A DNA stretch of 40,120 bases, taken from the IMG/VR virus record IMGVR_UViG_3300009422_000016, positions 1 through 40,120 of that record; one strand, written 5' to 3'. The translations under genes and the position numbers were made by a program. Source of the stretch: a virus. Below are positions 1,012-40,120 of this stretch, piece after piece. Under the pieces are notes generated by a model that saw only the letters and a list, made by a program, of their open reading frames with translations, did not search any database and was not told the DNA's origin. How positions within the stretch are numbered: the first letter of the stretch is position 1; each line of letters begins with the position of its first letter.

Positions 1012-2628
1012 ATGAAAATTAAAACAGTAACAATTGTAGGCGGCGGTTCATCAGGATGGATGACAGCAGCAGCACTAGCTAAATGTTGCCCACATTTAGA
1101 TATAACTCTAATTGAATCCAAGTCTATTGGCACAGTTGGCGTTGGTGAAAGTACCCTCGGGCATATCAACAGATACATGCGTTTACTTGATCTTAAAGAC
1201 GAAGATTGGATGGCAGCATGTAATGCTACATATAAAAATTCAATTCAATTTACAAACTTTAGAGAAGGCAACGGTGAAGTATTTCAATACCCGTTTAGTG
1301 ACGGACTTGATATGACTGATAAGCCTAGTGGGCCAGACAACTGGAAACAACTAGCTGCATTACGTCCTGAAGAATACGGTCCTGAAGAATATGCTAGATT
1401 TTTCTGTACAGGTAACACGCTACTAGCAGAGCATAACAAGCAAACTAAAAATGAAAATGGCGTATTAAGAAACTTTGATTACGATAACGATACTGCATAT
1501 CATATGGATGCACAGTTGTTTGGACAATACCTAAAAGATAACATTGCAATTCCTTTAGGTGTAAAACACATGTACGGAGAAGTACATTCGCACATGAAAG
1601 ATAATACTAATACATACATTACTCAAATTTTATGTGCTGACGGAACTATCCTTAAAGCAGACTTGTTTGTTGACTGTACCGGCTTTGCCTCAATTTTATT
1701 AGAACAATGGATGGGCTCACATTTTAGAAGTTTTGAAAACCATTTAGCAAATGACAAGGCTTGGGCATGTAGACTTCCTTATACTAATAGAGAAGAGCAA
1801 ATGCACAATGTAACTGATTGTTTTGCACTTGGCAACGGCTGGGTGTGGAATATTCCTTTATGGAATAGAATTGGTACTGGGTATGTGTACTCTAGTAGAT
1901 TTACTACTCCAGAAGCTGCTAAGGTTGAATTTAGAGAACATTTAGCAAAAACACACACTCCTGAAATTGCAGAAGCTGCTGAAATGTTTGAAGTTAAAAT
2001 TAGACACGGACGTAGACATAGAGCGTGGAAAGGTAACGTAGTTGGTGTGGGGTTAAGTTATGGATTTGTTGAACCATTAGAATCAACAGGACTATTAACT
2101 ACACATGAGAATGTTATTAAGTTGGTCGATCTATTAAATCGTAGAGACGGATTTGTATCACGCAGTGAAAAAGAAGGATTTAATTTCTCAGCTGAGTTTG
2201 ACGTAATTAAGTTTAGAGATTTTGTTTCGCAACATTATGCAATGTCGATGCGTGAAGATACTCCGTACTGGCGTTGGTGTACTGAACTTAACGAATATTC
2301 TCCAGAGATGCATGCCGATGAAATGCAAAAACATGGCCAATGGGCTAATATGTTTGGAAACATTATAGGCGCACATAGTTATGAGCCAAGTCATGTTGGT
2401 AATAACATGATTGCAGCAGGTATGGGATTACGTCCAACTGGAACACCGTCACTATTAACAGCTAGTAATAGACAATTAGTACAACTTCAAGAAGAAGTAG
2501 GTGCAGTTGATAGAATGTATCAGCAGTATAAAAACTTTGTTATAGAGCACATTAAAGATCTTCCAACGCATTATCAATTCTTACTAGAAAATATATACGG
2601 TGGTAACGATGAGCATAAACTTGATTAA
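1012..2628 (+). CDS. Flavin-dependent tryptophan-halogenase family protein (1 of 4)
   Basis: A 538-residue FADH2-dependent halogenase; the family makes HOX from halide, O2 and reduced flavin and halogenates electron-rich rings. The N-terminal GGGSSG (10-15) is the FAD-binding loop. K75 in ATYKNSIQF sits where the catalytic Lys of PrnA (K79) is expected. DCTGF at 221-225 and WVWNIP at 277-282 are family signatures, and FVEPLE (352-357) supplies the Glu expected near the active site. Full length for the family with all key residues, so probably active. AAAGGA precedes the ATG. It is the first gene of the plus-strand operon. Viral halogenases of this family are known (VirX1 of cyanophage Syn10). 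A flavin reductase partner is not visible in the window. Substrate unknown. Confidence 0.93.
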   Translation: MKIKTVTIVGGGSSGWMTAAALAKCCPHLDITLIESKSIGTVGVGESTLGHINRYMRLLDLKDEDWMAACNATYKNSIQFTNFREGNGEVFQYPFSDGLDMTDKPSGPDNWKQLAALRPEEYGPEEYARFFCTGNTLLAEHNKQTKNENGVLRNFDYDNDTAYHMDAQLFGQYLKDNIAIPLGVKHMYGEVHSHMKDNTNTYITQILCADGTILKADLFVDCTGFASILLEQWMGSHFRSFENHLANDKAWACRLPYTNREEQMHNVTDCFALGNGWVWNIPLWNRIGTGYVYSSRFTTPEAAKVEFREHLAKTHTPEIAEAAEMFEVKIRHGRRHRAWKGNVVGVGLSYGFVEPLESTGLLTTHENVIKLVDLLNRRDGFVSRSEKEGFNFSAEFDVIKFRDFVSQHYAMSMREDTPYWRWCTELNEYSPEMHADEMQKHGQWANMFGNIIGAHSYEPSHVGNNMIAAGMGLRPTGTPSLLTASNRQLVQLQEEVGAVDRMYQQYKNFVIEHIKDLPTHYQFLLENIYGGNDEHKLD

Positions 2629-5654: not shown

Positions 5655-6345
5655 CGAAACTAATCTGTTAGTAGATGACAAAGCTCATTACTTTGAAAAG
5701 CTACTAGACAATCCTAGTGACCTTGTTACTTGGAATGATATAGAACGTTGTGTAAATCAAACAGAGTTGTATAAGTTCGAGTTGATTGATCAAAATAGTA
5801 CCAAGATAGAAATTCCACAATCTGGTAAAAACTGGATCTATGATAAAGCAGTGCAAGACAAACAATTTATTATTGATAGTGTTAACCAAGGACAGGGATT
5901 AATTTGTTTAGACTATGGGTTTTACAGTCAAAAAACAATGGAATTTTTAAGTGTGTTTGAAAACTTGTTTAGTGTACACGCTGCAATACATGTGTACTGC
6001 GGTATGAAAGATTCTAAGTCTTTTACAATACATGATGATTATCCATGTAACTTTATTATTCAAGCTGAAGGTGAAACACGTTGGAAAGTATATAAAAATA
6101 AAATTTCATACTTACATCGAACAGGATTAATGAATAATAAACTAAGCGATAAAGATTTAGAAGTTGATATTGATGTAGTATTAAAACCAGGAGATGCATT
6201 ATACATTCCGTCAAGGCAGTATCATTGTGCATATCCTAAAGGAAAAAGGATATCGTTAAGTATTCCGTGTTGGCAAAAACTTCCAACAGAACCACGGGAG
6301 AATGCAGTAGACAGAAATTATTATAGGATCAACAACAATGTTTAA
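5626..6345 (+). CDS. JmjC/cupin-type Fe(II)/2OG oxygenase
   Basis: A 239-residue protein. AAGGA 6 nt upstream favours ATG 5626 over 5623; both lie inside the 3' end of the preceding gene. FTIHDDYPCNFIIQAEGETRWKV has the HxD pair of JmjC/Cupin_4 enzymes (H136, D138), and VVLKPGDALYIPSRQYHCAYP carries the distal His (H200). KRISLSIP closes the barrel. This places it with the JmjC-like hydroxylases (ROXA/FIH-type fold), distinct from the prolyl-hydroxylase-like neighbours. Known relatives hydroxylate protein or tRNA residues, so a protein substrate is conceivable, but nothing here names it. Confidence 0.75.
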   Translation: MNDFGQRILNETNLLVDDKAHYFEKLLDNPSDLVTWNDIERCVNQTELYKFELIDQNSTKIEIPQSGKNWIYDKAVQDKQFIIDSVNQGQGLICLDYGFYSQKTMEFLSVFENLFSVHAAIHVYCGMKDSKSFTIHDDYPCNFIIQAEGETRWKVYKNKISYLHRTGLMNNKLSDKDLEVDIDVVLKPGDALYIPSRQYHCAYPKGKRISLSIPCWQKLPTEPRENAVDRNYYRINNNV

Positions 6346-6919
6346 ACCAATTGAAATACCAAATGTAATTGATAGAGAATATCAAAAACAAATACACGAT
6401 GTAGTAACTGACATAACATTTGATTGGCACTTTATGGAAGATACAACATTTGAAAAGAAAGATACTTTTAATAAATCTACTCCTTCTTTTGCAAACTTAG
6501 TATATCATCCAGATAATAAAGAAAATCCTGGATTAGAGTTTTTTAAACCGTTGTTAGAAAATACGTGTGCTAAAGCTGGTTTGGAATTAGATACATTGTT
6601 ACGTATGCGATTAGGATTTTTACTTAATACAAAGTATATGATGCCACATGTGAGATATCAATACAATACACCACATGTGGATTTTAATGTAGATCATTAT
6701 ACTGCGTGTTACTATATTAATGAATGCGATGGCGAAACAGTTATATTTCACGAAACACAAGAATCAGAAAAATATAAGGCTATGCATAAAAGTATGCCGG
6801 AACAAGGCAAAGTTGTAGTATTCAACGGAAGACATTATCATGCAAGTACATGCCCTAAGATGTTTACGAAAAGAATTGTAATGACTATGAACTTTACAGC
6901 GAGTAAAATAGATGGATAA
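6338..6919 (+). CDS. 2OG-Fe(II) oxygenase (paralogue of the 8125 gene)
   Basis: A 193-residue protein with AGGA about 10 nt upstream, overlapping the JmjC gene by 8 nt. YNTPHVDFNVDHYTACYYIN gives HxD (H113, D115), DGETVIFHE is the following strand, GKVVVFNGRHYHAS gives the distal His (H168), and KRIVMTMNF gives the Arg (R179). This is the compact prolyl-4-hydroxylase-like core seen in many T4-like phages. The same string of motifs recurs in the gene at 8125 (YYVN.SDGDTVIFNE, VVVFPGKYYHSS), so the two probably arose by duplication. Confidence 0.85.
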   Translation: MFKPIEIPNVIDREYQKQIHDVVTDITFDWHFMEDTTFEKKDTFNKSTPSFANLVYHPDNKENPGLEFFKPLLENTCAKAGLELDTLLRMRLGFLLNTKYMMPHVRYQYNTPHVDFNVDHYTACYYINECDGETVIFHETQESEKYKAMHKSMPEQGKVVVFNGRHYHASTCPKMFTKRIVMTMNFTASKIDG

Positions 6920-10087: not shown

Positions 10088-11641
10088 TTATTTATCAATA
10101 TTCTGCACCCATTCGTCGATTGTCCAGAATGGAGCTACAAGTTCTTTGTAGCGGTTTACGTTAGTATTTAGCACTTGTTTGCCAATATCTAATTTATCTG
10201 CAAATGCGTGTGTAAAGTATGTACTATCAAATATATCTAATCCTTGGATAACTTGCATCCATGCAGCCGGCGAGTAACCGTTAAAAACTGGCTCAACAGG
10301 CGAGTGGCCTTTCCAAAACATTTCCCATTGTTCTAATTTTTGTTTTAGAGATTCTGGAATACGCTCTTGGTCGTGCATATGACTTAACCAAAAGTCTGTG
10401 TCGCTTCGGTTTCCTCTAAAATGTAGTGCAATGAAATCTTTAATATCGTCATATACAATTGATATTCTATGATTAAATCGTTCTTGGAATGCAGTATGAT
10501 CCCTTCTATTGGGGTCCCATAAGTCTTGTAATGCAAATAAACTTTCACAAATGACTGCAATGCCGTTTGCTTCTAATGGCTCTAAAAACCCACTACTAAG
10601 ACCAATTGCTATAACATTTTTATTCCAACTTGTATCCATAACACTTGGTGTATACGTAAATGATGCAACTGGCTCAATATGATCTCCACATACACTACGT
10701 GCTTCTTCTAGTGCTTGATCAGGTGTTAAGTAGTTTGGATCAAATATGTATCCGTTTCCTGATCTATGTTGTAAATTAATATTCCAGCGCCACCCGTATT
10801 TCATTGCAGTTGCATTAGTAGTTGGTGAATATTTTGGTTCGTCCCACCACGCAATTACTGACCTATGTGTAAAGTAATTAGAATAGTCATGCTCTTTAGT
10901 TTTTAGTTTTTTACCAATAAGCAGTCTTGCAAATCCAGAACAATCTATAAACCATTCTGCATTAATTTCTCGGTTGTCATCTAACACTAATGATGTTAAG
11001 TTACCATTGCTATCTTGTGTTGCATCAACATATGTGCCTTCTGTTAAATTAATATTACGTTGTAATGCAATAGATTTTAAATACGCTGCTGTTGCTCTAC
11101 TTTCGTTATGCCACATTGGAATAATAGGCAATTCAGCTCTACTTGCACCAAAAGGAACTTTGTTTTCTTTAATAAAATAATTTGCGTAAAATGCATCTGC
11201 TAACGGAACATTGTTTCCTAGCAGAGTAGCTTGATATATATCTTTTTGTCTTTCGGCTACCATAATATTTTTTAATTGGCCAAGAGATACGTCTTTAACA
11301 GTTTTATTAGTATCAGTCCAGCCGTCTAACCAAGGTGCATAATCAGTTTGTAAACAATGTATGAATTCACTACCAACACCGCTCCAGTCTTTAAAGCTAC
11401 CACCTAGCTTAGGAGTAGATTTTGTGTGTTTAACAAAGTCGTTAAAATCAATATCAAGCACATTTAACAGTTCAACAAATGTAGTAGTGCCGCTTTCGCC
11501 TGCAATGATAGGAGGTTTATTGGGATCTTCTACTACAGTAATCTGCATAGATGGAAACTTTTTTCTAACAACTAATGCAGTTAGCCAACCTGCAACGCCG
11601 CCACCAAGTATAACAAGATTAGAGGCTGATTGTGGTTTCAA
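10088..11641 (-). CDS. Flavin-dependent halogenase family protein (2 of 4), variant WRWNIN
   Basis: A 517-residue protein with a TTG start supported by AAAGGAGA at normal spacing; the start overlaps the end of the upstream halogenase by 23 nt. GGGVAG (13-18) is the FAD loop, K78 in STPKLGGSF fits the catalytic Lys, DCSGF is at 233-237, and FLEPLE (352-357) supplies the Glu. The WxWxIP signature is changed to WRWNIN (284-289), with Asn in place of Pro. It is the most divergent of the four halogenases and its N-terminal AGESGTTT differs from the usual GVGEST. FAD binding looks intact. It may halogenate a different substrate or have altered flavin-halide chemistry. Confidence 0.88.
   Translation of the reverse strand: MKPQSASNLVILGGGVAGWLTALVVRKKFPSMQITVVEDPNKPPIIAGESGTTTFVELLNVLDIDFNDFVKHTKSTPKLGGSFKDWSGVGSEFIHCLQTDYAPWLDGWTDTNKTVKDVSLGQLKNIMVAERQKDIYQATLLGNNVPLADAFYANYFIKENKVPFGASRAELPIIPMWHNESRATAAYLKSIALQRNINLTEGTYVDATQDSNGNLTSLVLDDNREINAEWFIDCSGFARLLIGKKLKTKEHDYSNYFTHRSVIAWWDEPKYSPTTNATAMKYGWRWNINLQHRSGNGYIFDPNYLTPDQALEEARSVCGDHIEPVASFTYTPSVMDTSWNKNVIAIGLSSGFLEPLEANGIAVICESLFALQDLWDPNRRDHTAFQERFNHRISIVYDDIKDFIALHFRGNRSDTDFWLSHMHDQERIPESLKQKLEQWEMFWKGHSPVEPVFNGYSPAAWMQVIQGLDIFDSTYFTHAFADKLDIGKQVLNTNVNRYKELVAPFWTIDEWVQNIDK
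10089..10096 (-). promoter_or_regulatory. Late-type promoter box GATAAATA (minus strand)
   Basis: Overlaps the stop codon of the halogenase gene at 10088. The predicted start near 10083 gives a 14-nt leader with AGGAG for the 52-aa gene. Confidence 0.5.
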
Positions 11642-13133
11642 GATATCTCTCCTTTAGTATGTTTAGTGCTTCTCTATGAGTATAAACTGTCCCTTCATTA
11701 GGACGGTCAGCAGTACCTTCATGTATAACTCTTGAAATCTGATCGTTGTGTACACTAGCAAAATTAGTGTTCCAAAAAGATTTAATAGATGCATAATCAA
11801 ACATGTGTAAGCCGTGCATAACTTGTAACCAATTTAAAAAACTAAACATTGTCATAGGCTCTGCAAAATAGCTTGGACTTACAAATGTTTGCTTAAAGGT
11901 ACCAAGAGTATCTTTATTGAAATCAGTTAGTTCAATATTTTGATTACACCACTTCCAAAACTCGCTGTCGTTTCTTTTAGTAACATAATGAATTTGAATA
12001 AAATCAATAATGTTAGTAGCAACTTTATTCATTCTGTTGTTAAATGTTTTTACTAATGCACTAGATGAATCTTTTCGATAGTATGCAAGTGATCCCACTA
12101 ACAGAAACGTTTGCTGGATAGTTGATCCAATCGAACTTGCTTCTAATGGTTCTACAAACATAGCACTAAGACCTAATGACATACAGTTTTTAGTCCAAAA
12201 TTCGTTAACATAACCAGCATTAAATTTTACATCTTTTCCAATTTCTAAATTTTTAATACCTAAAACGTTTTCGTAGTATTGTGATACTTCATCATATGCC
12301 TGCGTTTTATTAATAAAGTTATCGCTAAACACATATCCGTTACCGTATCTATCTTGTGTTGGAATTCTCCAAACCCATCCGCTACTTAATGCAGTTGCTT
12401 CTGTCCAAGAAGGTATGTCCTCAGTTCTAGCTGTTGGAAATGCAATAGCACTATTCATTGGTAATTGATGAGAACAGTCTATCCATTGTTGTCCGAGTTT
12501 AGACGAAATTACTCTATTAAAACCACTGCAATCTATAAAAAACTCGCTAGTATGTTTAGTACCTGTAGTATCAAGTAACGATTCTACATTACCTGTATTG
12601 TCTAAAATTACATCTTGTATGTCAACATCTAATACTTTAATATCTCGATTGCTGCATTCTTTAACAAGAAACTCGTTTAATTTGTGTGTATCAAAATGAT
12701 ACTGTGCTACTGTAGCATGTAATGGTTCAGCATGTAAACTATCTTGTGTACGTTTCCATGCAGTGTCTAAAGGGTCCCATTGTTCAGCAATCATTCTCAT
12801 CCACGATACTGGCATTTCATTGTTTGGATCTAATGAACCGTATGCGGATGTTAAGCTATGAAAATAACTTTTATCATCACCATTCCAGTTAGTAAACTTA
12901 ATACCAACTTTAAATGTGGCGCCTGTTTCTCTTACAAGTGTTGGCACATCAATACCGACATGCCCTAAAAAATGTTCCCAGTGTTCAGTTGATCCTTCAC
13001 CTACACCAATAATTCCAATTTTAGATGAACGCAACAGTGTAAGGTTAATATGAGGGAAAGATTTTTTAATTATCATTGCAGAAACTAGTCCGCTAGTTCC
13101 GCCTCCTAATATTGTTAAAGATTGAATCATCAT
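11619..13133 (-). CDS. Flavin-dependent halogenase family protein (3 of 4)
   Basis: A 504-residue protein. GGGTSG (10-15), GVGEGSTEHW (43-52), K75 in ATFKVGIKF, DCSGF (201-205), WVWRIP (253-258) and FVEPLE (326-331) are all present, so the catalytic set is complete. The start overlaps the stop of the upstream halogenase by ATGA; a second ATG directly follows. It is clearly a close paralogue of the next gene upstream (shared GEGSTEHW, DRYGNGYVFSD/DRFGNGYVFSD, EPLEASSI, LNWLQVMHGL/LNWIQVMHGL), indicating tandem duplication and then divergence. Confidence 0.93.
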   Translation of the reverse strand: MMIQSLTILGGGTSGLVSAMIIKKSFPHINLTLLRSSKIGIIGVGEGSTEHWEHFLGHVGIDVPTLVRETGATFKVGIKFTNWNGDDKSYFHSLTSAYGSLDPNNEMPVSWMRMIAEQWDPLDTAWKRTQDSLHAEPLHATVAQYHFDTHKLNEFLVKECSNRDIKVLDVDIQDVILDNTGNVESLLDTTGTKHTSEFFIDCSGFNRVISSKLGQQWIDCSHQLPMNSAIAFPTARTEDIPSWTEATALSSGWVWRIPTQDRYGNGYVFSDNFINKTQAYDEVSQYYENVLGIKNLEIGKDVKFNAGYVNEFWTKNCMSLGLSAMFVEPLEASSIGSTIQQTFLLVGSLAYYRKDSSSALVKTFNNRMNKVATNIIDFIQIHYVTKRNDSEFWKWCNQNIELTDFNKDTLGTFKQTFVSPSYFAEPMTMFSFLNWLQVMHGLHMFDYASIKSFWNTNFASVHNDQISRVIHEGTADRPNEGTVYTHREALNILKERYLETTISL

Positions 13134-14623
13134 AGTGAGTAAGTAATCCCTTTTCCTTTAATACTGTCTACTGCTTGTCTACAAGTAAGCCATGTGCCTC
13201 CTGTAGTAGTTTGCGGAAGTTGATCTAATTGTTGTATATCCTGTGTACGATAATGACTATAACGACTTTCGTACAATTTTTTAATATTTTTTTGATCAAA
13301 CATTCTTAACCCGTGCATCACTTGAATCCAATTTAAGCAATCGTATATTCTAAAACTGCCATGTGTTCCGTCTTCGGGTAACAATACTTGATTAACAAAA
13401 TTAGTTTTAAACATCTCTATGTTTTCTTTATTAAAGTCTGTCATAGTAATTTCGTTATTGCACCATTGCCAAAACTTAGTATCATTGCGTTGTGTAAAGT
13501 AATGTAACTGAATAAAGTCTAATACATTAGATAAACAATCGTCAAATGTTTTGTTATATTCTTTAATGGTGCCAGTGTCGTTGCGATCCCAAGTTGCTAA
13601 AGAACCTGCTAACGCTCTTGATTGTTGAATAGTAGTTGAAATGCTACTTGCTTCTAGCGGCTCAACAAAGTTACTACTAAGCCCAATGCTTACACAATTC
13701 TTAATCCAAAACTTATTGACTTTTCCTGATACAAAGTTAATTTTTCTACCAATGTTAATTGTATCTGTAAAATGTTTTTGTATTTCGTTAACGGCTTCGT
13801 CTTCTGAAATAAATTGATCACTAAACACATATCCATTACCAAATCTATCTTGTACAGGACTGCGCCAATGCCAACCTGCATCCATTGCCTTAGATAATGT
13901 GTAAGGAGGAATTTTTTCTTCGTATGGTGTTTGGAATGCAATAGCACTATTCATTGGCAGATACTTAGACCAATCAACCCACTCTGCTCCTAGCTTAGAT
14001 GCAATAACTCTTTTAAATCCGCTACTGTCAATAAAGAAATCTGCATGATGTTTTGCATTAGTTGAGTCAACAACATAATCAACAAATCCGTTTTGATCTA
14101 ATACAGTATCAACTACTTCGGCATCGATTACTTTAATTCCAGCTTCAATACACCTCTTTAATAGATATGCATTTAATTTTTCACTATCAAAATGGAACTG
14201 ATAATAATCTTCAAACGGTGGGCTTAACCATCCTTGCATTGGCAAGTCCCAATGTAATTCTTCAGTGCTAGTACCATCTGCAATTAAACGCATCAGTGTG
14301 TGTGCATCACCAGTATATCCGTCAGTCCATACATACGGGTCGGCCAAACTATGATAATAGCTAGTACCATCACCGTGCCAATTTTCAAATTTGATACCAA
14401 TCTTAATAGTTGCGCCACATTCTTCAACAAGGTCTTTTAGCGTTATACCAACTGCTTGTGCAAATCGTTTCCAGTGTTCTGTACTACCTTCACCTACTCC
14501 GATTGTGCCAATCTTGTTAGACTTAATAAGTGTAATATCAATATTACTAATTGCTGTTTTTTGATATAATGCAGTCATGAGTCCAGCGTTTCCACCACCT
14601 AAGACTAGTAAACTTTTTATCAT
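13130..14623 (-). CDS. Flavin-dependent halogenase family protein (4 of 4), variant WHWRSP
   Basis: A 497-residue protein. GGGNAG (9-14), GVGEGSTEHW (42-51), K74 in ATIKIGIKF and FVEPLE (319-324) are present. Two signatures deviate: WxWxIP reads WHWRSP (251-256) and DCSGF reads DSSGF (199-203). A tandem paralogue of the 11619 gene. The catalytic Lys and Glu are kept, so it is likely active but tuned differently. It overlaps the upstream oxygenase gene by 4 nt and the downstream halogenase by 4 nt, so all are probably made from one message. Confidence 0.92.
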   Translation of the reverse strand: MIKSLLVLGGGNAGLMTALYQKTAISNIDITLIKSNKIGTIGVGEGSTEHWKRFAQAVGITLKDLVEECGATIKIGIKFENWHGDGTSYYHSLADPYVWTDGYTGDAHTLMRLIADGTSTEELHWDLPMQGWLSPPFEDYYQFHFDSEKLNAYLLKRCIEAGIKVIDAEVVDTVLDQNGFVDYVVDSTNAKHHADFFIDSSGFKRVIASKLGAEWVDWSKYLPMNSAIAFQTPYEEKIPPYTLSKAMDAGWHWRSPVQDRFGNGYVFSDQFISEDEAVNEIQKHFTDTINIGRKINFVSGKVNKFWIKNCVSIGLSSNFVEPLEASSISTTIQQSRALAGSLATWDRNDTGTIKEYNKTFDDCLSNVLDFIQLHYFTQRNDTKFWQWCNNEITMTDFNKENIEMFKTNFVNQVLLPEDGTHGSFRIYDCLNWIQVMHGLRMFDQKNIKKLYESRYSHYRTQDIQQLDQLPQTTTGGTWLTCRQAVDSIKGKGITYSL

Positions 14624-17472: not shown

Positions 17473-20004
17473 ATGGCTGACAGAGAATATATTGTTACAG
17501 TAAACCCCGGAGTTGATCTTGATGCACTTGATGCAGAGATGGTTTCAGCACTAGGTTCAGATACAATTCCAACAAGAAAAGTTACAATTGCAAATCCTCG
17601 TGAAGCTTCTAGAGTATCAACTCACTTCATGTTATCAGACGCAGAAGCAGAAGATTTAAGAAACAATGCTAGAGTTTTAGCTGTTGAAATTCCTGTTGAA
17701 GAACGTGACGATGTTCAAATAAGTTTGCGAGCTTCACAAACAGGAAACTTTTTTAGAGGTTCTGGTAGTAGTGGTAATCTTGACAACTGGGGATTACAGC
17801 GTTGTATAAGTGAAACAGAAAATTATGGCAACGGTAGTACACCAGCAGGCACTCAAACAATTACATCAATATCAGATCCTTATTTGTATCCACTAGATGG
17901 TACAGGGGTTGATGTTGTTATTCAAGATAGCGGAATTGAAGGTGGACACCCTGAATGGGAAACATTAAATTTTGTAGCACCAGATCATTATGCTGCAGGT
18001 CCATTAGTTACAGATAGTACCAATGGCGCCGTGTTTGATAGAAGTATTAATGTACACGGACTTAAAATTGTAATTGCAGGAGCAGTGGGCGGAGCAACAA
18101 CTGTACATAGCGAGTTTGCAAAAAAAGTTGCAAGAACAGTTGAGCTATTACTAACTCCACGTAAAACAACAAACACCGAAAAACAAAAAAAACTTATTGA
18201 AAACCTAAGAGGCGATACAGGTACGTGGCATGCAGGAACTCCAGCAGCACAACGAGTTGGTTTCGGCGGTGGTGCTAGTTACTCACCTAATTGGTTAACT
18301 GACAGTGGCATTGGTAGTTATAGCGGTTATCAAGGGTTTCTAGATAGCCATGCTGTTAACGATATGGTTTGGTATTTAAATTCAGGTGGCACGCCAGGTA
18401 CTGGCAACAACGATATAACAGAAGTAATAGAACATGTATTTCATACAATACATCAATATGGGCTTGAAGCTAGAGAATTAAAAATGTATCCTAGCTTTGA
18501 TTCAGACTGGGCAACAGGCCCAATGTTCCTTGCAATGAAAGAAGCAGAAGATAACAATATATGGGATGCAGCGAGCAGTGGTGCACCTAACTGGAAAACA
18601 GACGCCGATACATTTCCTGTAGCAGTAAAAGAATACTTATATCTACTAAACTTTGCAATGTTTGAATATACAAGTTTATGGGACGGTGGCAGTTTGGCTC
18701 CTGAATGGGTTGACTCTGCACGTACTCCAGCAGGTGTACAAGCTCTAAATCCGTTAGGTTATGGATTGTTTAACACACATATTAAAGATGTAATTGAAAA
18801 AATCGACATTGATGTTTTACAAAGTATTTTCCCAGACGGCGATACAGGAAATCCATTTGCAGCAGGATCGTCAGGATATGTTTCAAATACATCAAGTTCA
18901 AGACTACAGCAAATTGACTGGTACAAAGAAAGTACTGTAACAGGAACACAAGATACAACTTTTTATACAGACTTGCACGGGCACGGAACACATGTTACAG
19001 GAACAGTTGCAGGTAAAACCTTTGGTTGGGCAAAAGGTGCAAGAATATATTCACAAAAATTAGGAGGGCTTGAAGGCTCAGCAGATCCTAATGATGGTAT
19101 TAGTATTGTAAATTCATTTGATTGTATTAGACTATGGCACAGCAAAAAACCTATTGATCCAATTACAAAAGTTAAAAGACCAACTATTGTTAACATGAGT
19201 TGGGGATACGGAACTAACATTGCTAATACAGAAACTCCAGTATCTGGAAACTACAGAGGAGCAGCATGGACTTACGGTACTGACTACGCTGATGTTAACC
19301 AGGTATGGGCAAACGTAGGTGTTGTACCTTTTGTAGGAACAAGATGGAAAATTCCTGTCCAAGTAGCATACGTTGATGCTGAAGTTGCAGATATGATTAA
19401 TGATGGTATACATGTTTGTATTGCAGCAGGTAATGATTATTATAAAGTTGATGTTAGTGGCGGAGACGATTACAATAATAATGTTACATTTACTGCCGGA
19501 ACATACAATTATCATAGACCGCCTTCTCCATATGCAACAGGAGCATTTAACGTAGGCAATATCGATAGCAGAATTTTAAACAATTTAGATGTAACTAAGC
19601 CAGACAGCATGAAAGGCCCTGCTGTAACTATATGGGCACCCGGAACAAATATTATTAGTGCATGTTCAAACATATCAGAAATTGGCGGACCATCAGTATA
19701 TAAATTAAACAGCAGTTGGGGACAACAATCTATTAGTGGTACAAGTATGGCAAGTCCGCAAGTATGTGGTGTAGGAGCATTAAACTTACAAGTAGATCCT
19801 ACATTAACACCTGCACAACTTAAACAAAAGTTAGAAGGAAACGCACCTGCAGTAATGTTTACAACAAGCTCAAGCACTGATTACAATCAATATACCACTA
19901 GTATTATGGGATCAGCAGGTAAAATTTTATACAACAAATACAACTCAAGTCAACCATTTGCAACAAGCGGTGGCGTTACTATAACTAATTTGCGTATAGT
20001 ATAA
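17473..20004 (+). CDS. Subtilisin-family (S8) serine protease with large insertion
   Basis: An 843-residue protein. The catalytic triad is visible: D152 in VVIQDSGIEGGHP, H504 in HGHGTHVTGTVAG and S758 in SGTSMASPQV, with the oxyanion Asn N654 in IAAGND. The first 100 residues may be a propeptide-like domain. Between Asp and His lies an insertion of roughly 330 residues (165-495), far beyond the usual spacing, containing EHVFHTIHQYG (320-330) with a HxxHxxH pattern that could bind metal. No signal peptide or membrane segment is seen. It lies between fibre genes, so it may be virion-associated, processing fibre proteins or digesting host surface protein. The triad is seen; the role is inferred. 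Confidence 0.88.
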   Translation: MADREYIVTVNPGVDLDALDAEMVSALGSDTIPTRKVTIANPREASRVSTHFMLSDAEAEDLRNNARVLAVEIPVEERDDVQISLRASQTGNFFRGSGSSGNLDNWGLQRCISETENYGNGSTPAGTQTITSISDPYLYPLDGTGVDVVIQDSGIEGGHPEWETLNFVAPDHYAAGPLVTDSTNGAVFDRSINVHGLKIVIAGAVGGATTVHSEFAKKVARTVELLLTPRKTTNTEKQKKLIENLRGDTGTWHAGTPAAQRVGFGGGASYSPNWLTDSGIGSYSGYQGFLDSHAVNDMVWYLNSGGTPGTGNNDITEVIEHVFHTIHQYGLEARELKMYPSFDSDWATGPMFLAMKEAEDNNIWDAASSGAPNWKTDADTFPVAVKEYLYLLNFAMFEYTSLWDGGSLAPEWVDSARTPAGVQALNPLGYGLFNTHIKDVIEKIDIDVLQSIFPDGDTGNPFAAGSSGYVSNTSSSRLQQIDWYKESTVTGTQDTTFYTDLHGHGTHVTGTVAGKTFGWAKGARIYSQKLGGLEGSADPNDGISIVNSFDCIRLWHSKKPIDPITKVKRPTIVNMSWGYGTNIANTETPVSGNYRGAAWTYGTDYADVNQVWANVGVVPFVGTRWKIPVQVAYVDAEVADMINDGIHVCIAAGNDYYKVDVSGGDDYNNNVTFTAGTYNYHRPPSPYATGAFNVGNIDSRILNNLDVTKPDSMKGPAVTIWAPGTNIISACSNISEIGGPSVYKLNSSWGQQSISGTSMASPQVCGVGALNLQVDPTLTPAQLKQKLEGNAPAVMFTTSSSTDYNQYTTSIMGSAGKILYNKYNSSQPFATSGGVTITNLRIV

Positions 20005-34853: not shown

Positions 34854-36443
34854 ATGGCAAAATCACTTGACGGTGTGCAAATTAAGAAAGCGCACCAAAA
34901 TGTAAAATACACAATAGAAGAAGTAAAGCATCTAGAAGCATGTATGGATCCTATTACAGGTCCATTATATTTTTGCGAAAACTTTCTTAAGATTCAACAT
35001 CCTGTTAGAGGATCGTTAAAGTTTGAACCTTACGGATTTCAAAGAGAACTAATTCAAGCATACGCTGAAAACAGATATTGTGTTGCTATGTTACCTAGAC
35101 AGATGGGTAAAACAACATGTGCATCTGGTTATCTATTATGGTATACACAGTTTGTTCCTGAGGCACAAGTCCTTATTGCTGCACACAAGTACACAGGTGC
35201 GCAAGATATTATGAACAGATATAGATTTGGGTACGAAAATTTACCTGACTTTATTCGTGCTGGAATATACACATACAACAGAAACACAATTGAATACGAT
35301 AACGGAAGTAGAATACAAGCAACAACTACTACAGAAGATTCTGGACGTGGTAAATCACTTTCATTAATTTACTGTGATGAGTTTGCGTTTGTGCAACCTC
35401 CTGAAAAAGCCAAAGAGTTTTGGACTGCACTATCACCTACACTTTCAACAGGTGGTAAAGCTATTGTTACAAGTACACCAAACTCAGATGAAGATCAGTT
35501 TGCTATGATTTGGGCTGAAGCTAATAAAAAATTCGATGATCACGGTAATGACTTAACAGTAGGAACTAACGGATTCTTTCCTTACTTTGCACCGTGGACT
35601 GAACATCCAGACAGAGATGAAGCATGGGCAGCACAAGAGAAAGCAAAGATTGGAGAAGAACGTTTCCGTCGTGAGTTTGATTGTGAATTCTTAATCTTTG
35701 ATGAAACACTTATCAACAGTGTTAAACTTATAGAACTGGAAGGCAAAGAACCTATAGTAAACATGGGGCAAACACGCTGGTACAAAAAGATTGATCCAAA
35801 AGCAACATTCCTTATAAGTATGGATCCAAGTTTAGGTACAGGTGGCGACTACGGTGCTATTCAAATATTTGAAATGCCGTCAATGACACAAGTTGGAGAG
35901 TGGAGACACAACCTAACTCCTATACAACAGCAGGTAAGAGTACTTAGAGAAATTTTACAATACATTCATGAACAGTGTGAAGAAAAAGGCAGTCCAAACC
36001 CAACTATCTATTATAGTGTTGAGAACAATACAATTGGTGAAGCAGCACTAGTAGTTATTTCTGACATTGGAGAGGAAAACTTTAGAGGGTTATTCCTAAG
36101 CGAACCAATTAGAAAAGGGCATGTAAGACGCTATAGAAAAGGCTTTAATACAACACATAAAACAAAGATTACTGCGTGTAGTAGCTTTAAAAACTTACTA
36201 GAAAAAGGTAAAATGACGGTATACAGTAAACCGTTAATATCAGAACTTAAGACATTTGTAGCACACGGAGTTGGGTACGGTGCTAAAACAGGTGAACACG
36301 ATGACCTTGTGTCCGCAGTACTTTTAATTGTACGCATGGCAAATGTGTTATCTGACTGGGATCCTAAGATATACGAAAAAATGACCGAAAGAATGACCGA
36401 AGATCAGTTCCCAATGCCGATCTTCATTAGCACAGGATATTGA
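34854..36443 (+). CDS. 17: Terminase large subunit, T4 gp17-like
   Basis: A 529-residue protein. ATG 34854 is chosen from the promoter geometry; an upstream start would cross the terminator. Walker A is MLPRQMGKTT (79-88), Walker B LSLIYCDEF with D175/E176, and coupling motif STP (207-209). The RNase-H-like nuclease has D324 in ISMDPSLG, E390 in YYSVENN and D483/D484 in GEHDDLVSA, matching the T4 D401/E458/D542 triad. Length is close to T4 gp17 (610 aa). Packages DNA into the prohead through the portal. Confidence 0.95.
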   Translation: MAKSLDGVQIKKAHQNVKYTIEEVKHLEACMDPITGPLYFCENFLKIQHPVRGSLKFEPYGFQRELIQAYAENRYCVAMLPRQMGKTTCASGYLLWYTQFVPEAQVLIAAHKYTGAQDIMNRYRFGYENLPDFIRAGIYTYNRNTIEYDNGSRIQATTTTEDSGRGKSLSLIYCDEFAFVQPPEKAKEFWTALSPTLSTGGKAIVTSTPNSDEDQFAMIWAEANKKFDDHGNDLTVGTNGFFPYFAPWTEHPDRDEAWAAQEKAKIGEERFRREFDCEFLIFDETLINSVKLIELEGKEPIVNMGQTRWYKKIDPKATFLISMDPSLGTGGDYGAIQIFEMPSMTQVGEWRHNLTPIQQQVRVLREILQYIHEQCEEKGSPNPTIYYSVENNTIGEAALVVISDIGEENFRGLFLSEPIRKGHVRRYRKGFNTTHKTKITACSSFKNLLEKGKMTVYSKPLISELKTFVAHGVGYGAKTGEHDDLVSAVLLIVRMANVLSDWDPKIYEKMTERMTEDQFPMPIFISTGY

Positions 36444-36449
36444 TAAATA
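36442..36449 (+). promoter_or_regulatory. Late-type promoter box GATAAATA, leaderless geometry
   Basis: Overlaps the end of the terminase gene; five bases separate it from ATG 36455, with no Shine-Dalgarno at normal spacing. Confidence 0.6.
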
Positions 36450-36454
36450 GTTAT

Positions 36455-38977
36455 ATGGATGCAACGAATAACATAGCAACTGATCTATTCTACAAAATTA
36501 GAAGTAGATTTAAAGGTTTAAAATTAGGCGATGATGCTGGGTCAATTACAATTAATCCAGAAGACGCTCGCTTCTTTGATTTTGATTACAACGAAGGTGA
36601 TAAAAACATCGGGCATGTAAGTATTAGTTTGGCAGAACCAAACTCAATGAAGGTATACTTTTCAAATGGTATTACTGAAGGTATGGATGGTGATCAAAAA
36701 GATAACTGGTTTGGCTTCCTAAAAGAATTAAGAAAATTTAGTAAAAGACGAATGTTAGCATTTGATACAAGAGACATTTCTAAAGACAATTTAGATCAAA
36801 GAGATTATGCGTTTTTAAGTCAGCACACATCACCAAAAGCTGATAATAATACAATAGTAAAACCAGTCGGAGAGAGTACAATGAATGAGAGTAACCTATA
36901 CGGTACTAAAAAACAAAGTTTCCAAAAATTGGAAGATACAAGATTAATCATTAAGCACAGTAAGACACTTGCTGATGATACAGAGCAAAAACCCGGCGAC
37001 AGGTCAAGAAATATTGGAGCGTTGTTTGTTGAAAACTCACAAGGCGAAAGATTTAAATATCCCTTTATTCACTTAGCTGGTGCTAGAGCAATGCAAAGAC
37101 ACGTTGCAAATGGCGGTGCTCCATATGATGAAATTGGTGAAAGCATTATTAAAATGAGTGAAGAAATTGCTCAACTAAAAAGTTTCACAGGCTATGTTGT
37201 ACGTAACGACTTAATGAACTCCGACACTAATTCTGTTGTTGAACGTAGCAAAGGCCAACTTGATGCTTTAAGAGAAAGAGTTGCTAAATTATCTAAACAA
37301 GCACACTACGAAAACTATATATCTGAATTCCAAACACCAGAAGCATTTGAAGTTCCAGACGAAGTTATGGAACAGTTTAAAGATCAATTTACTGTACGCA
37401 ATTTTAAAGAAGATTTAGCATCAGTATTTCCAGTACTATACAGGCTGATGAAAGAAGATGAAATTATAGGCTATGACGACATAGTCGAAATGTCAGGCAG
37501 TGAAGAATCAAACTACCATTGTAAAGATTGTGGAGACACAATGCACAAACCTACTTCTGATTGCTCACATGATTCACATGATGAAAAAGGCAGTCATTGG
37601 ATTGATGACAACGGTAATGGTATTAACGATGTAGATGAATCATCCGATCCGATGGCAGCATTTGAAGCTTGGGCGATGGGTTTAGGTGAAGATTCGCCAA
37701 TTCAATCAGGCAGCGACGAAGAAATTAAAGAAGCAGTGTCTAGTTTAAGTGAGCTAGTTAACTCAGAGTTTCCAGCAGGCATGGGCGGAATTAACGCTAT
37801 TGAAAGTTTAAAAGGTATTATCGAAGATGGTACATTGTTTAATGATATTAAAGAACAGGCTAAACAAGATCCAAACGCAGATTGTCGTCCATTAATTAAA
37901 GCATGGGTTCAAGAGAATGCACCAGAAGTATTAGAAGACCTAGACTTTGGTGACATGGTAGACGAACCAGCCATGGAAGATGCATTTGATAAGGCAGATA
38001 GAATTACAGATCCAGAAGAACTTAATTTATATGGTCCAGAAGACATAGAAAATAATAGTAAACTGAGTGCAGAAGAACTTAAAGACGAGCTAGAAGGCTC
38101 CATCTATCATTTAATGGATAAAGCCAGTGATGATTTTACTGACAATGATCATATTGCAGATGAATTGGGAGACCACTTTGCCAACATGCATCTTAAAGCC
38201 GACGATAAAACATTAAGTTGTTATTCAGCAATAAGAGATTTGATAGATGCAGATCCATCAGACGTTTATGAAACAGGTAAGAAATGTCTTAAAATATTAG
38301 GCGCTCAAGAACATGAAGATAATATTCGTGGTAACAAAGGACCAAGAGGCCGTCCAGCCGCAGATGCTTATGCTGGTGGGATGGAATCACAACAAGAAGG
38401 GTTTATGCCAGAAGAGATAGAAGGCAAGACTGAGTTTGAATTCATTGGCGATGACGGTGAATCACAAATGGGAACATTACACTATAAAGCAAAAATTGAA
38501 CAAACAGAAGAAGGCGGCTACAAAGCAATTATTGATCCTAAAAGTTTAAGAGGCGAAGCAGATCCAATGGAAGATCCAAATGGCGCAAACGCTAAAGTGG
38601 ACGACGAACTTGCAACAATGCAGGTAGTACCGGGCGGAGATGCTCATGAAGGCGCAATGGAATTTGCAGAAGAGGACGCACAAGAACAAATTGAAAATGC
38701 TGACACAAACGAAGGCAACGGACACAAAGAACAGGAATCTAAAAATAAGTTAAACGTAACAGAAGTAGCTAACTTTATCCTGTCAATGTATGACAGACAA
38801 GCTGGTACATTCCCTAAAGGCCCAGAAGGTGTTGCTACTATGGTAGGCAAGAAGTTTGGTGAACAAGCAGAAATGGTTGCTCGCAAAATGGTAGAACGTA
38901 TGGCACCTGCACAAGAACACGGTGCAGAAGAACTTGCTGAGTTAGAAAGAATCAAAACTCTTTCAGGCGCTTACTAA
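36455..38977 (+). CDS. Large acidic protein of unknown function
   Basis: An 840-residue protein. ATG 36455 follows the late box exactly. The first ~340 residues are alpha/beta with no motif I know (FFDFDYNEGDKNIGHVSISL, GNLYG-type linkers, RDYAFLSQ). Residues 356-370 contain CKDCG...DC, a possible zinc site, and 384-395 a DDNGNGINDVDE loop like an EF-hand/dockerin loop. The rest is acidic and helical (many DE-rich, ELKDELEG, EEIEGKTEFEFIGDDGESQMG). I recall similar large proteins in marine phages near the terminase, unnamed. It may be a virion component, judged by late promoter and position only. Confidence 0.6.
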   Translation: MDATNNIATDLFYKIRSRFKGLKLGDDAGSITINPEDARFFDFDYNEGDKNIGHVSISLAEPNSMKVYFSNGITEGMDGDQKDNWFGFLKELRKFSKRRMLAFDTRDISKDNLDQRDYAFLSQHTSPKADNNTIVKPVGESTMNESNLYGTKKQSFQKLEDTRLIIKHSKTLADDTEQKPGDRSRNIGALFVENSQGERFKYPFIHLAGARAMQRHVANGGAPYDEIGESIIKMSEEIAQLKSFTGYVVRNDLMNSDTNSVVERSKGQLDALRERVAKLSKQAHYENYISEFQTPEAFEVPDEVMEQFKDQFTVRNFKEDLASVFPVLYRLMKEDEIIGYDDIVEMSGSEESNYHCKDCGDTMHKPTSDCSHDSHDEKGSHWIDDNGNGINDVDESSDPMAAFEAWAMGLGEDSPIQSGSDEEIKEAVSSLSELVNSEFPAGMGGINAIESLKGIIEDGTLFNDIKEQAKQDPNADCRPLIKAWVQENAPEVLEDLDFGDMVDEPAMEDAFDKADRITDPEELNLYGPEDIENNSKLSAEELKDELEGSIYHLMDKASDDFTDNDHIADELGDHFANMHLKADDKTLSCYSAIRDLIDADPSDVYETGKKCLKILGAQEHEDNIRGNKGPRGRPAADAYAGGMESQQEGFMPEEIEGKTEFEFIGDDGESQMGTLHYKAKIEQTEEGGYKAIIDPKSLRGEADPMEDPNGANAKVDDELATMQVVPGGDAHEGAMEFAEEDAQEQIENADTNEGNGHKEQESKNKLNVTEVANFILSMYDRQAGTFPKGPEGVATMVGKKFGEQAEMVARKMVERMAPAQEHGAEELAELERIKTLSGAY

Positions 38978-39012: not shown

Positions 39013-39213
39013 ATGATTAATTTTATTAAGAAGATATTTGGTATGGATACTGCACCTGTTGTAGTAGAAGAAGCAAAGGTAATTCAAAAAACAGTTACGA
39101 AAAATGGTGTAGGACATGCACCTAAGATTGAACCTGTAATTACTGAAGTTAAAAAAGCTACTGCTAAAAAAGCTACTGCTAAAAAGCCTGCTGCTAAAAA
39201 AACTAAGAAGTAA
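39013..39213 (+). CDS. Lys/Ala-rich small protein with histone-H1-like tail
   Basis: A 66-residue protein. A hydrophobic N-terminus MINFIKKIFGMDTAPVVVEE is followed by a tail VKKATAKKATAKKPAAKKTK resembling histone H1/HU-type Lys-Ala-Pro repeats. Such tails bind DNA or other polyanions. The pattern may help DNA condensation, packaging, or anchor the protein to a membrane through the amphipathic start. Closed by a terminator. Function is inferred from composition only. Confidence 0.7.
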   Translation: MINFIKKIFGMDTAPVVVEEAKVIQKTVTKNGVGHAPKIEPVITEVKKATAKKATAKKPAAKKTKK

Positions 39214-39232: not shown

Positions 39233-39269
39233 AAAAAGGGTTGCTTTACAGTAGAGCAACTCTTTTTTT
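39233..39269 (+). terminator. Intrinsic terminator
   Basis: Stem about GGGTTGCT (39238-39245) with AGCAACTC (39255-39262), a 9-nt loop and a T run. Separates the Lys-rich gene from the riboswitch unit. Confidence 0.85.
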
Positions 39270-39272
39270 ATG

Positions 39273-39280
39273 ACTAAATA
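39273..39280 (+). promoter_or_regulatory. Late-type promoter box ACTAAATA of the riboswitch unit
   Basis: Five bases separate the box from 39286, the first base of the predicted riboswitch P1 stem, the same offset as in the leaderless genes. Confidence 0.55.
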
Positions 39281-39285
39281 TTATA

Positions 39286-39335
39286 CGTTCATCCTATCAA
39301 GGACGGAAGTAGCATAACGCGAAGGAACGCACCTA
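39286..39335 (+). ncRNA. Glutamine-riboswitch-like element (glnA / Downstream-peptide type)
   Basis: CGTTC (39286-39290) pairs with GAACG (39325-39329) as P1; ATCC with GGAC forms a hairpin over TATCAA; between lie GGAAGTAG and AACGCGAAGG. These strings and their order match the glutamine riboswitch consensus as I remember it (GGACGGAAGUAG ... GAAGGAACGC). CACC just 3' of P1 can pair with GGTG of the downstream AGGAGGGTG, so the Shine-Dalgarno could be masked. The Downstream-peptide type is known from cyanobacteria, cyanophages and marine metagenomes, upstream of short genes, as here. Secondary structure is drawn by eye. Confidence 0.8.
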
Positions 39336-39355
39336 ACTTTAAAAAGGAGGGTGTT

Positions 39356-39460
39356 ATGGAACTATGGAACCAATATTGCTGGAAGATAGCAGTTCGAGAC
39401 CATAGACGTAAGCAGATATTAAAACGCTTATGGCTACGTTCAATCAACATATACATTTAA
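39356..39460 (+). CDS. 34-aa basic peptide under riboswitch control
   Basis: Begins MELWNQYCWKIAVRDHRRKQ and ends WLRSINIYI. Strong Shine-Dalgarno AAGGAGG 5 nt before the ATG. Net positive with a basic helix (RDHRRKQILKRLWLRS) and several aromatics, which would suit binding a host protein or nucleic acid. Its position directly after the glutamine-riboswitch-like element fits the known short downstream peptides of this riboswitch class. I do not recognise its sequence family firmly, and it is not the cyanobacterial GifB type. Confidence 0.7.
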   Translation: MELWNQYCWKIAVRDHRRKQILKRLWLRSINIYI

Positions 39461-39501: not shown

Positions 39502-39544
39502 CTAGTGCAGTACAATTTTTAAACTTAATTAAGGAGTACAAGTT

Positions 39545-39616
39545 ATGTGGACAAAACCAGAATATACAGAAATGCGTTTTGGGTTTGAAGTAACAATGTA
39601 TGTATTAAACAGGTAA
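39545..39616 (+). CDS. pqqA: PQQ precursor peptide PqqA
   Basis: A 23-residue peptide starting MWTKPEYTEMRFGFEVTMY and ending in Arg. Shine-Dalgarno AAGGAG 8 nt upstream. The sequence is near-identical in pattern to bacterial PqqA (MWxKPxxxxxRxGxEVTxY): E15 and Y19 of the E-V-T-M-Y core are the two residues that PqqE cross-links and that become the PQQ skeleton. Length is typical (22-29 aa). No pqqB, C, D or E gene is seen here, so the peptide would need the host enzymes. An intrinsic terminator follows directly, so this is its own short transcript. PQQ is the cofactor of methanol and other alcohol dehydrogenases, which suggests a methylotroph-like host. Confidence 0.92.
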   Translation: MWTKPEYTEMRFGFEVTMYVLNR

Positions 39617-39630
39617 CAATGCAGTAATTA

Positions 39631-39659
39631 GGAAGGAGGCTTTTGTCTCCTTTCTTTTT
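39631..39659 (+). terminator. Intrinsic terminator after pqqA
   Basis: GGAAGGAG (39631-39638) pairs with CTCCTTTC (39647-39654, one G-T pair), 8-nt loop, then a T run. Confidence 0.85.
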
Positions 39660-39787: not shown

Positions 39788-40120
39788 ATGGCATCACTCG
39801 CAGAAATCCGCGCTAAACTTCAAGAAGGCGCAAACAAAGCATCCGGTGGAAACACTGGCGGCGACAACGCAATTTACCCACATTGGAATATGGCAGAAGG
39901 CAAAGAATCGGTATTACGATTCCTACCTGACGCTGACAATTCTAACACGTTCTTTTGGGCAGAACGTGCTATGATTAAACTTCCGTTTGCTGGAGTAAAA
40001 GGCGAATCTGACTCACGTCAGGTTATTGTACAAGTTCCATGTATGGAAATGTACAACGATGGTACACCGTGTCCGATCTTAACAGAAGTTCGTCCATGGT
40101 TCAAAGACAAATCATTAGAA
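39788..40120 (+). CDS. 32: Single-stranded DNA-binding protein, T4 gp32-like (3' end beyond the window)
   Basis: The first 111 residues are visible. The N-terminus MASLAEIRAKLQEGANK is the basic B-domain type start that mediates cooperative binding, followed by NAIYPHWNMAEGKESVLRFLPD, the typical gp32 entry, and VIVQVPCMEMYNDGTPCPI with two Cys of the zinc site. FFWAERAMIKLPF belongs to the OB-fold core. The frame runs off the window, so the C-terminal acidic domain is not seen. Coats ssDNA in replication, recombination and repair. Confidence 0.93.
   Translation, partial: MASLAEIRAKLQEGANKASGGNTGGDNAIYPHWNMAEGKESVLRFLPDADNSNTFFWAERAMIKLPFAGVKGESDSRQVIVQVPCMEMYNDGTPCPILTEVRPWFKDKSLE

Follow-up and report, generated by a model that had tools for sequence, protein, structure and literature searches.

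A 23-codon reading frame near the right end of a viral sequence raises the question of why a phage would carry the gene for PqqA, the PQQ precursor peptide, with no other pqq gene beside it. The sequence analysed, hereafter the window, is the entire IMG/VR record IMGVR_UViG_3300009422_000016, a 40,120-base entry classed as a linear fragment; for this phage, the search for companion genes covers these 40 kb.

A genuine PqqA gene without pathway partners

The reading frame encodes the 23-residue peptide MWTKPEYTEMRFGFEVTMYVLNR followed by a stop codon (Table 1). This peptide scored 43.9 bits (E 2e-11) against the Pfam PqqA model PF08042, which has a cut-off of 21.1 bits, and 48.8 bits (E 4e-13) against the NCBIfam equivalog TIGR02107 (cut-off 20 bits). 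The latter model had matches in 0/14 control genomes. In PqqA, a glutamate and a tyrosine separated by three residues make up the PQQ skeleton. The window peptide contains E15-V-T-M-Y19, following the E-x-x-x-Y rule of the family, and the glutamate and tyrosine were invariant across 70/70 distinct phage DNA variants. The gene has the size expected for PqqA (about 20-30 codons with their own ribosome site), and a Shine-Dalgarno-like core preceded 84/85 phage pqqA copies, as against 9.6% when every ATG of the fetched loci is counted. The first-pass annotation had described a full PqqA pattern including E15 and Y19 behind a strong Shine-Dalgarno and had proposed a profile search; translation, ribosome site and both models agreed with that description. 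A PDB search with the peptide returned nothing useful, and PHROGs holds no family for PqqA.

Sequence variation indicated that the peptide is under constraint. Among 16 distinct pqqA copies, fetched via the terminase gene so that pqqA was not used as bait, pS was 0.62 and pN 0.13, with 17/22 third positions variable. A larger set of 70 distinct variants gave 0.64 for synonymous and 0.10 for nonsynonymous differences; the search patterns behind this set favour the conserved core, and its low pN is partly built in. A chance reading frame or annotation artefact was ruled out by the profile scores, the selection and the Shine-Dalgarno enrichment. Because both curated models scored far above their cut-offs, E15 and Y19 were in place and no control genome matched, we conclude that the window contains a genuine PqqA gene.

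No pqqB, pqqC, pqqD or pqqE was found in the 40-kb window, and PqqE was also absent by profile; pqqA is the sole pqq gene there, as had been claimed. Likewise, pqqB-E were absent near 86/86 phage or viral pqqA copies, and the whole records of one representative per cultured methylophage lineage (n = 5) contained no PqqE gene. The linked pqqBCDE operon that usually accompanies PqqA was thus found neither in the window nor near the copies of its relatives. This does not weaken membership of the family, which is defined without reference to linkage. Host contamination of the viral contigs as a set was ruled out, since pqqB-E lay nearby in 0/86 phage or viral loci versus 34/72 bacterial loci. A viral methanol dehydrogenase nearby was also ruled out; no PQQ_2-domain protein was found across 29 related or pqqA-bearing records.

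The peptide has Tyr7, as in other Beta/Gammaproteobacteria (the fetched Methylophilaceae copies mostly have Ala7), and differs by one residue from the PqqA of a betaproteobacterial MAG (L094). For these reasons the host is probably a PQQ-making Beta/Gammaproteobacterium, its membership of the Methylophilaceae not being certain. Beta/Gammaproteobacterial genomes with Tyr7-type PqqA had 1-3 pqqA copies together with PQQ alcohol dehydrogenases, and the latter were present in 12/12 candidate host genomes.

Insertion site and upstream leader

The window belongs to a T4-like phage with terminase, virion, tail-sheath, gp15-like and gp32-like genes; among named phages, its terminase was closest to those of jumbo phages such as PA5oct (52%). 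Four tryptophan halogenase genes (PF04820) were present at 1012-2628 (+), 10088-11641 (-), 11619-13133 (-) and 13130-14623 (-), and share the region from 1 to 15 kb with genes for 2OG-Fe(II) oxygenase, JmjC/cupin and DUF6445 proteins, with which they form a group. An 843-aa protein with a subtilase domain (PF00082) was encoded among the structural genes (17473-20004, +).

Table 1 Features surrounding pqqA in the window
Feature	Position	Strand	Evidence
845-aa virion protein gene, conserved and flanking the insertion site on the left	36440..38977	+	PHROG 13484 (head and packaging); synteny
Hairpin with T-run closing the preceding unit (p66 gene, 39013-39213)	39233..39267	+	-17.3 kcal/mol, z -5.0
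CTAAATA, T4-type late-promoter-like box just ahead of the riboswitch	39274..39280	+	Position relative to gene starts
Glutamine riboswitch aptamer, RF01739	39284..39333	+	Rfam 54.1 bits, gathering threshold 35, E 2.5e-9
Predicted hairpin over the ribosome site of the small ORF, CACC 39330-39333 with GGTG 39350-39353	39330..39353	+	Pairing kept across leaders
Small ORF, 34 codons, MELWNQYCWKIAVRDHRRKQILKRLWLRSINIYI, conserved behind phage glutamine riboswitches	39356..39460	+	Relatives behind riboswitches in L009, L011, L013, L024, L035 and others
Shine-Dalgarno of pqqA, AAGGAG	39531..39536	+	Sequence; 8 nt before ATG
pqqA, 23-codon PQQ precursor peptide gene	39545..39616	+	Translation, PF08042, TIGR02107
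Intrinsic terminator after pqqA, common to relatives without pqqA	39630..39655	+	Also in L172 and L174, both without pqqA
gp32-like ssDNA-binding protein gene, right conserved flank, runs off the window	39788..40120	+	PHROG 1192, E 2.5e-23; synteny

Of 80 terminase relatives, 59 covered the whole stretch from the 845-aa virion gene to gp32. The search for the gene in related phages, another check proposed earlier, gave a divided answer: pqqA was present at this site in 24/59 and absent in 35/59, and because so many relatives lack it there, it is dispensable at this position. The loci of two relatives, L174 and L175, matched at 96-98% identity; L175 is longer by about 144 bases, which hold a Shine-Dalgarno and pqqA, and in L174 the preceding gene leads directly to the same terminator hairpin. 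Judged from this comparison, pqqA is a recently gained or lost cassette set ahead of a pre-existing terminator. The terminator previously assigned to pqqA as its own does exist, but it is not pqqA's own, as this near-identical relative keeps the hairpin without the gene. No sigma-70 promoter belonging to pqqA was found on the + strand before the gene. Beside the neighbouring gene of phage MEP401, pqqA occurred in 3/12 relatives, and the upstream sequence of some of them may not reach far enough to include it.

The first-pass annotation overlooked both this site-specific presence and absence in close relatives and what lies upstream: a late box, a glutamine riboswitch and a conserved small ORF. 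The window has nine CTAAATA/TATAAATA boxes, which we take to be late promoters of the T4 type. Seven of them precede a start on their own strand by no more than 90 nt, compared with 5% of window positions, the gene starts being our own ORF choices. The aptamer scored above the gathering threshold of the RF01739 covariance model and was found at the same place in L010, L163 and L165. The small ORF had no match in PHROGs, which holds no family for it, and none by tblastn against named phages, for which the query is too short and divergent. Directly 3' of the aptamer, a CACC segment (or a variant of it) is predicted to base-pair with the small ORF's ribosome site. This predicted pairing was kept in 26/26 leaders listed, including two-sided changes from CACC/GGUG to CACU/AGUG and to CAUC/GAUG. 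In cyanobacteria there are hints that expression behind this riboswitch group is lower under nitrogen depletion (PMC2864571), which suggests that glutamine may be the ON signal for the switch. In the window, the small ORF and pqqA are separated by 84 nt and pqqA has its own Shine-Dalgarno; coupling of this pqqA to the switch is therefore at best at the level of the transcript.

Riboswitch and pqqA in other phages

The order riboswitch, small ORF, pqqA recurred in at least 76 IMG/VR contigs, searched for in two spacings (68 contigs at 95-125 nt and 8 at 180-210 nt). It was found in four genomic neighbourhoods: before gp32 in the window's clade, after a T4-like capsid gene (L018, L044), after a podovirus-like capsid gene (L011, L013 and others) and upstream of a terminase gene (L035). 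In the 636,550 bases surrounding 80 viral pqqA copies, 20 glutamine riboswitches were found. Of these, 16 preceded pqqA on its own strand by at most 400 nt, where about 0.5 would be expected from random placement, a comparison in which the lineages are not independent. Most of the viral pqqA copies fetched had no recognisable riboswitch. The small ORF, approximately M-x-W-x-x-[YF]-C-R-K, was recognisably alike over most neighbourhoods and was not found in L018. In podoviruses its stop codon lies inside the first codons of pqqA, overlapping the pqqA start, and in L011 (5918-6073), as well as in L378 and L429, the small ORF and PqqA share one frame with a possible 51-aa product.

Other arrangements were also seen. 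Phage Melnitz (L009, 2505-2672) has a 32-codon ORF of the same small-peptide type after a glutamine riboswitch, with no pqqA at that place; its record annotates a reverse-strand ORF there. In L030, a glutamine riboswitch was found downstream of pqqA, followed by a freshwater-2 RNA motif (6150-6191 and 6654-6730). No paper naming both the glutamine riboswitch and pqqA was found, most subscription papers lying outside the search.

These arrangements bear on whether pqqA is regulated by the switch at all. It may supply precursor as an unregulated passenger, transcribed late from its position ahead of the terminator while the riboswitch serves the small ORF only. The Melnitz arrangement agrees with this, as do L171, L175, L183 and others, in which pqqA occupies the same site and no riboswitch is recognised. 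The recurrence of one gene order across four neighbourhoods, in at least 76 contigs, argues against it, and so do the overlapping frames of the podoviruses and the in-frame fusion in L011, L378 and L429. We regard an unregulated passenger as possible and on balance doubtful. With somewhat more confidence, at just short of even chances, we propose that riboswitch, small YCRK-type peptide gene and pqqA form a mobile module, common to unrelated phages of PQQ-producing bacteria, that would tie precursor supply to glutamine, so that alcohol and methanol oxidation would be fed only while nitrogen is sufficient. If true, this would make pqqA one of the few metabolic genes of phages to be controlled by directly sensing a metabolite.

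Proposed role and known systems

The reading that we consider probable is that orphan phage PqqA is converted to PQQ by host PqqBCDE for alcohol and methanol dehydrogenases, with late expression gated by glutamine. A T4-like phage would bring in pqqA, and the peptide would be a competent substrate of host PqqD/PqqE and PqqB/PqqC. Late in infection, a transcript would begin at the CTAAATA box, span the glutamine riboswitch, the small ORF and pqqA, and stop at the terminator after pqqA. The switch would govern how readily ribosomes reach their site at the small ORF, and its effect would extend to pqqA output through the shared transcript or, in podoviruses, through overlapping translation. Since PqqA is spent one-for-one while the Pqq enzymes turn over, more substrate alone could raise PQQ and keep the PQQ alcohol and methanol dehydrogenases supplied. 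In surface waters, one-carbon compounds have in these dehydrogenases a major point of entry. Extra precursor supply for the cofactor, as put forward in the first-pass annotation, is backed as the likeliest role of the gene, PQQ output itself being what we infer.

In Methylophilaceae, 3-12 pqqA copies generally accompany a single set of the remaining pqq genes (PMC4109929), and the representatives examined here had 4-12 copies. In a methylotroph PQQ overproducer, a stand-alone pqqA copy was strongly expressed (PMC9851590). Both observations are consistent with substrate dose mattering. An orphan substrate without processing genes could also act as a decoy, flooding the cell so that the chaperone is saturated, occupying PqqD/PqqE, lowering host PQQ synthesis and steering the cell off alcohol oxidation. 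We think this improbable: Glu15 and Tyr19 were kept in every copy examined, while a decoy would be free to lose one, and hosts themselves have many orphan pqqA copies. Recruitment to a role outside PQQ, such as virion assembly or translation regulation, could be imagined from the capsid or replication genes that adjoin pqqA in several phages, but the sequence stays inside the equivalog PqqA model and resembles host-type variants, which makes such a role very improbable. Extra substrate for an intact host pathway would be the simplest account.

The gene was not as unusual as the first-pass annotation had supposed, as at least 587 IMG/VR contigs encode close PqqA relatives. By tblastn against 50,697 phage records, pqqA was found in 12. 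Nine of these are cultured OM43/LD28 methylophages of five lineages (P19250A, Venkman, MEP301, MEP401, MEP402 and four Melnitz isolates); the other three are one spring-water podovirus genome and two contigs labelled 'Acinetobacter phage MD-2021a'. One of the latter (L008, CAKLQF020000010.1) was rejected as a phage pqqA, having a whole pqqABCDE operon beside ppk and looking like bacterial chromosome. None of the phages found by tblastn annotates pqqA as such; it is omitted or overlapped by a differently called hypothetical ORF. No mention of phage pqqA was found in the papers describing Melnitz, MEP401/402, MEP301 and Venkman. Only two viral contigs fitted the pattern used for alphaproteobacterial-type pqqA, and for this reason viral pqqA looks concentrated in phages with the Beta/Gammaproteobacterial type of PqqA. 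An alphaproteobacterial-type pqqA was seen at 4436-4462 of L369, a 265,895-base contig filed as viral. If the supply role holds, finding this 23-codon gene in every cultured OM43/LD28 phage lineage checked would make PQQ-precursor supply a standard phage strategy, one that has stayed out of sight since gene callers pass over reading frames of this size.

The orphan multicopy pqqA of Methylophilaceae (PMC4109929; Ge et al. 2015, as cited in PMC9851590) resembles the phage gene in being a stand-alone extra copy beside a single set of other pqq genes. Unlike the phage gene it is chromosomal, and a glutamine riboswitch was found in 0/72 bacterial pqqA loci fetched. The leader has its counterparts in the glutamine riboswitch (glnA RNA, RF01739) and Downstream-peptide RNA (PMC2864571) and in the Melnitz example (PMC9004378), where the same aptamer is followed by a short conserved ORF. 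However, the Melnitz riboswitch was connected with ssrA and a late-transcription coactivator, and no control of a unit containing pqqA was reported. Phage pqqA by itself is not new. Viral pqqA has been reported from reservoir sediments (PMC13188868), and the mention of earlier cases in the first-pass annotation is right in substance: a T4-like methylophage population from Lake Baikal, VP_266, was described in 2020 as encoding PqqA (PMC7678222). That study denied P19250A any of these genes, whereas tblastn finds an unannotated pqqA in it. VP_266 differs from the phages studied here in also encoding a methanol dehydrogenase, the 29 records having shown no PQQ_2-domain protein, and no riboswitch link was described for it. 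What the two share is a phage-borne pqqA in a T4-like virus, proposed for VP_266 to raise PQQ for methanol dehydrogenase.
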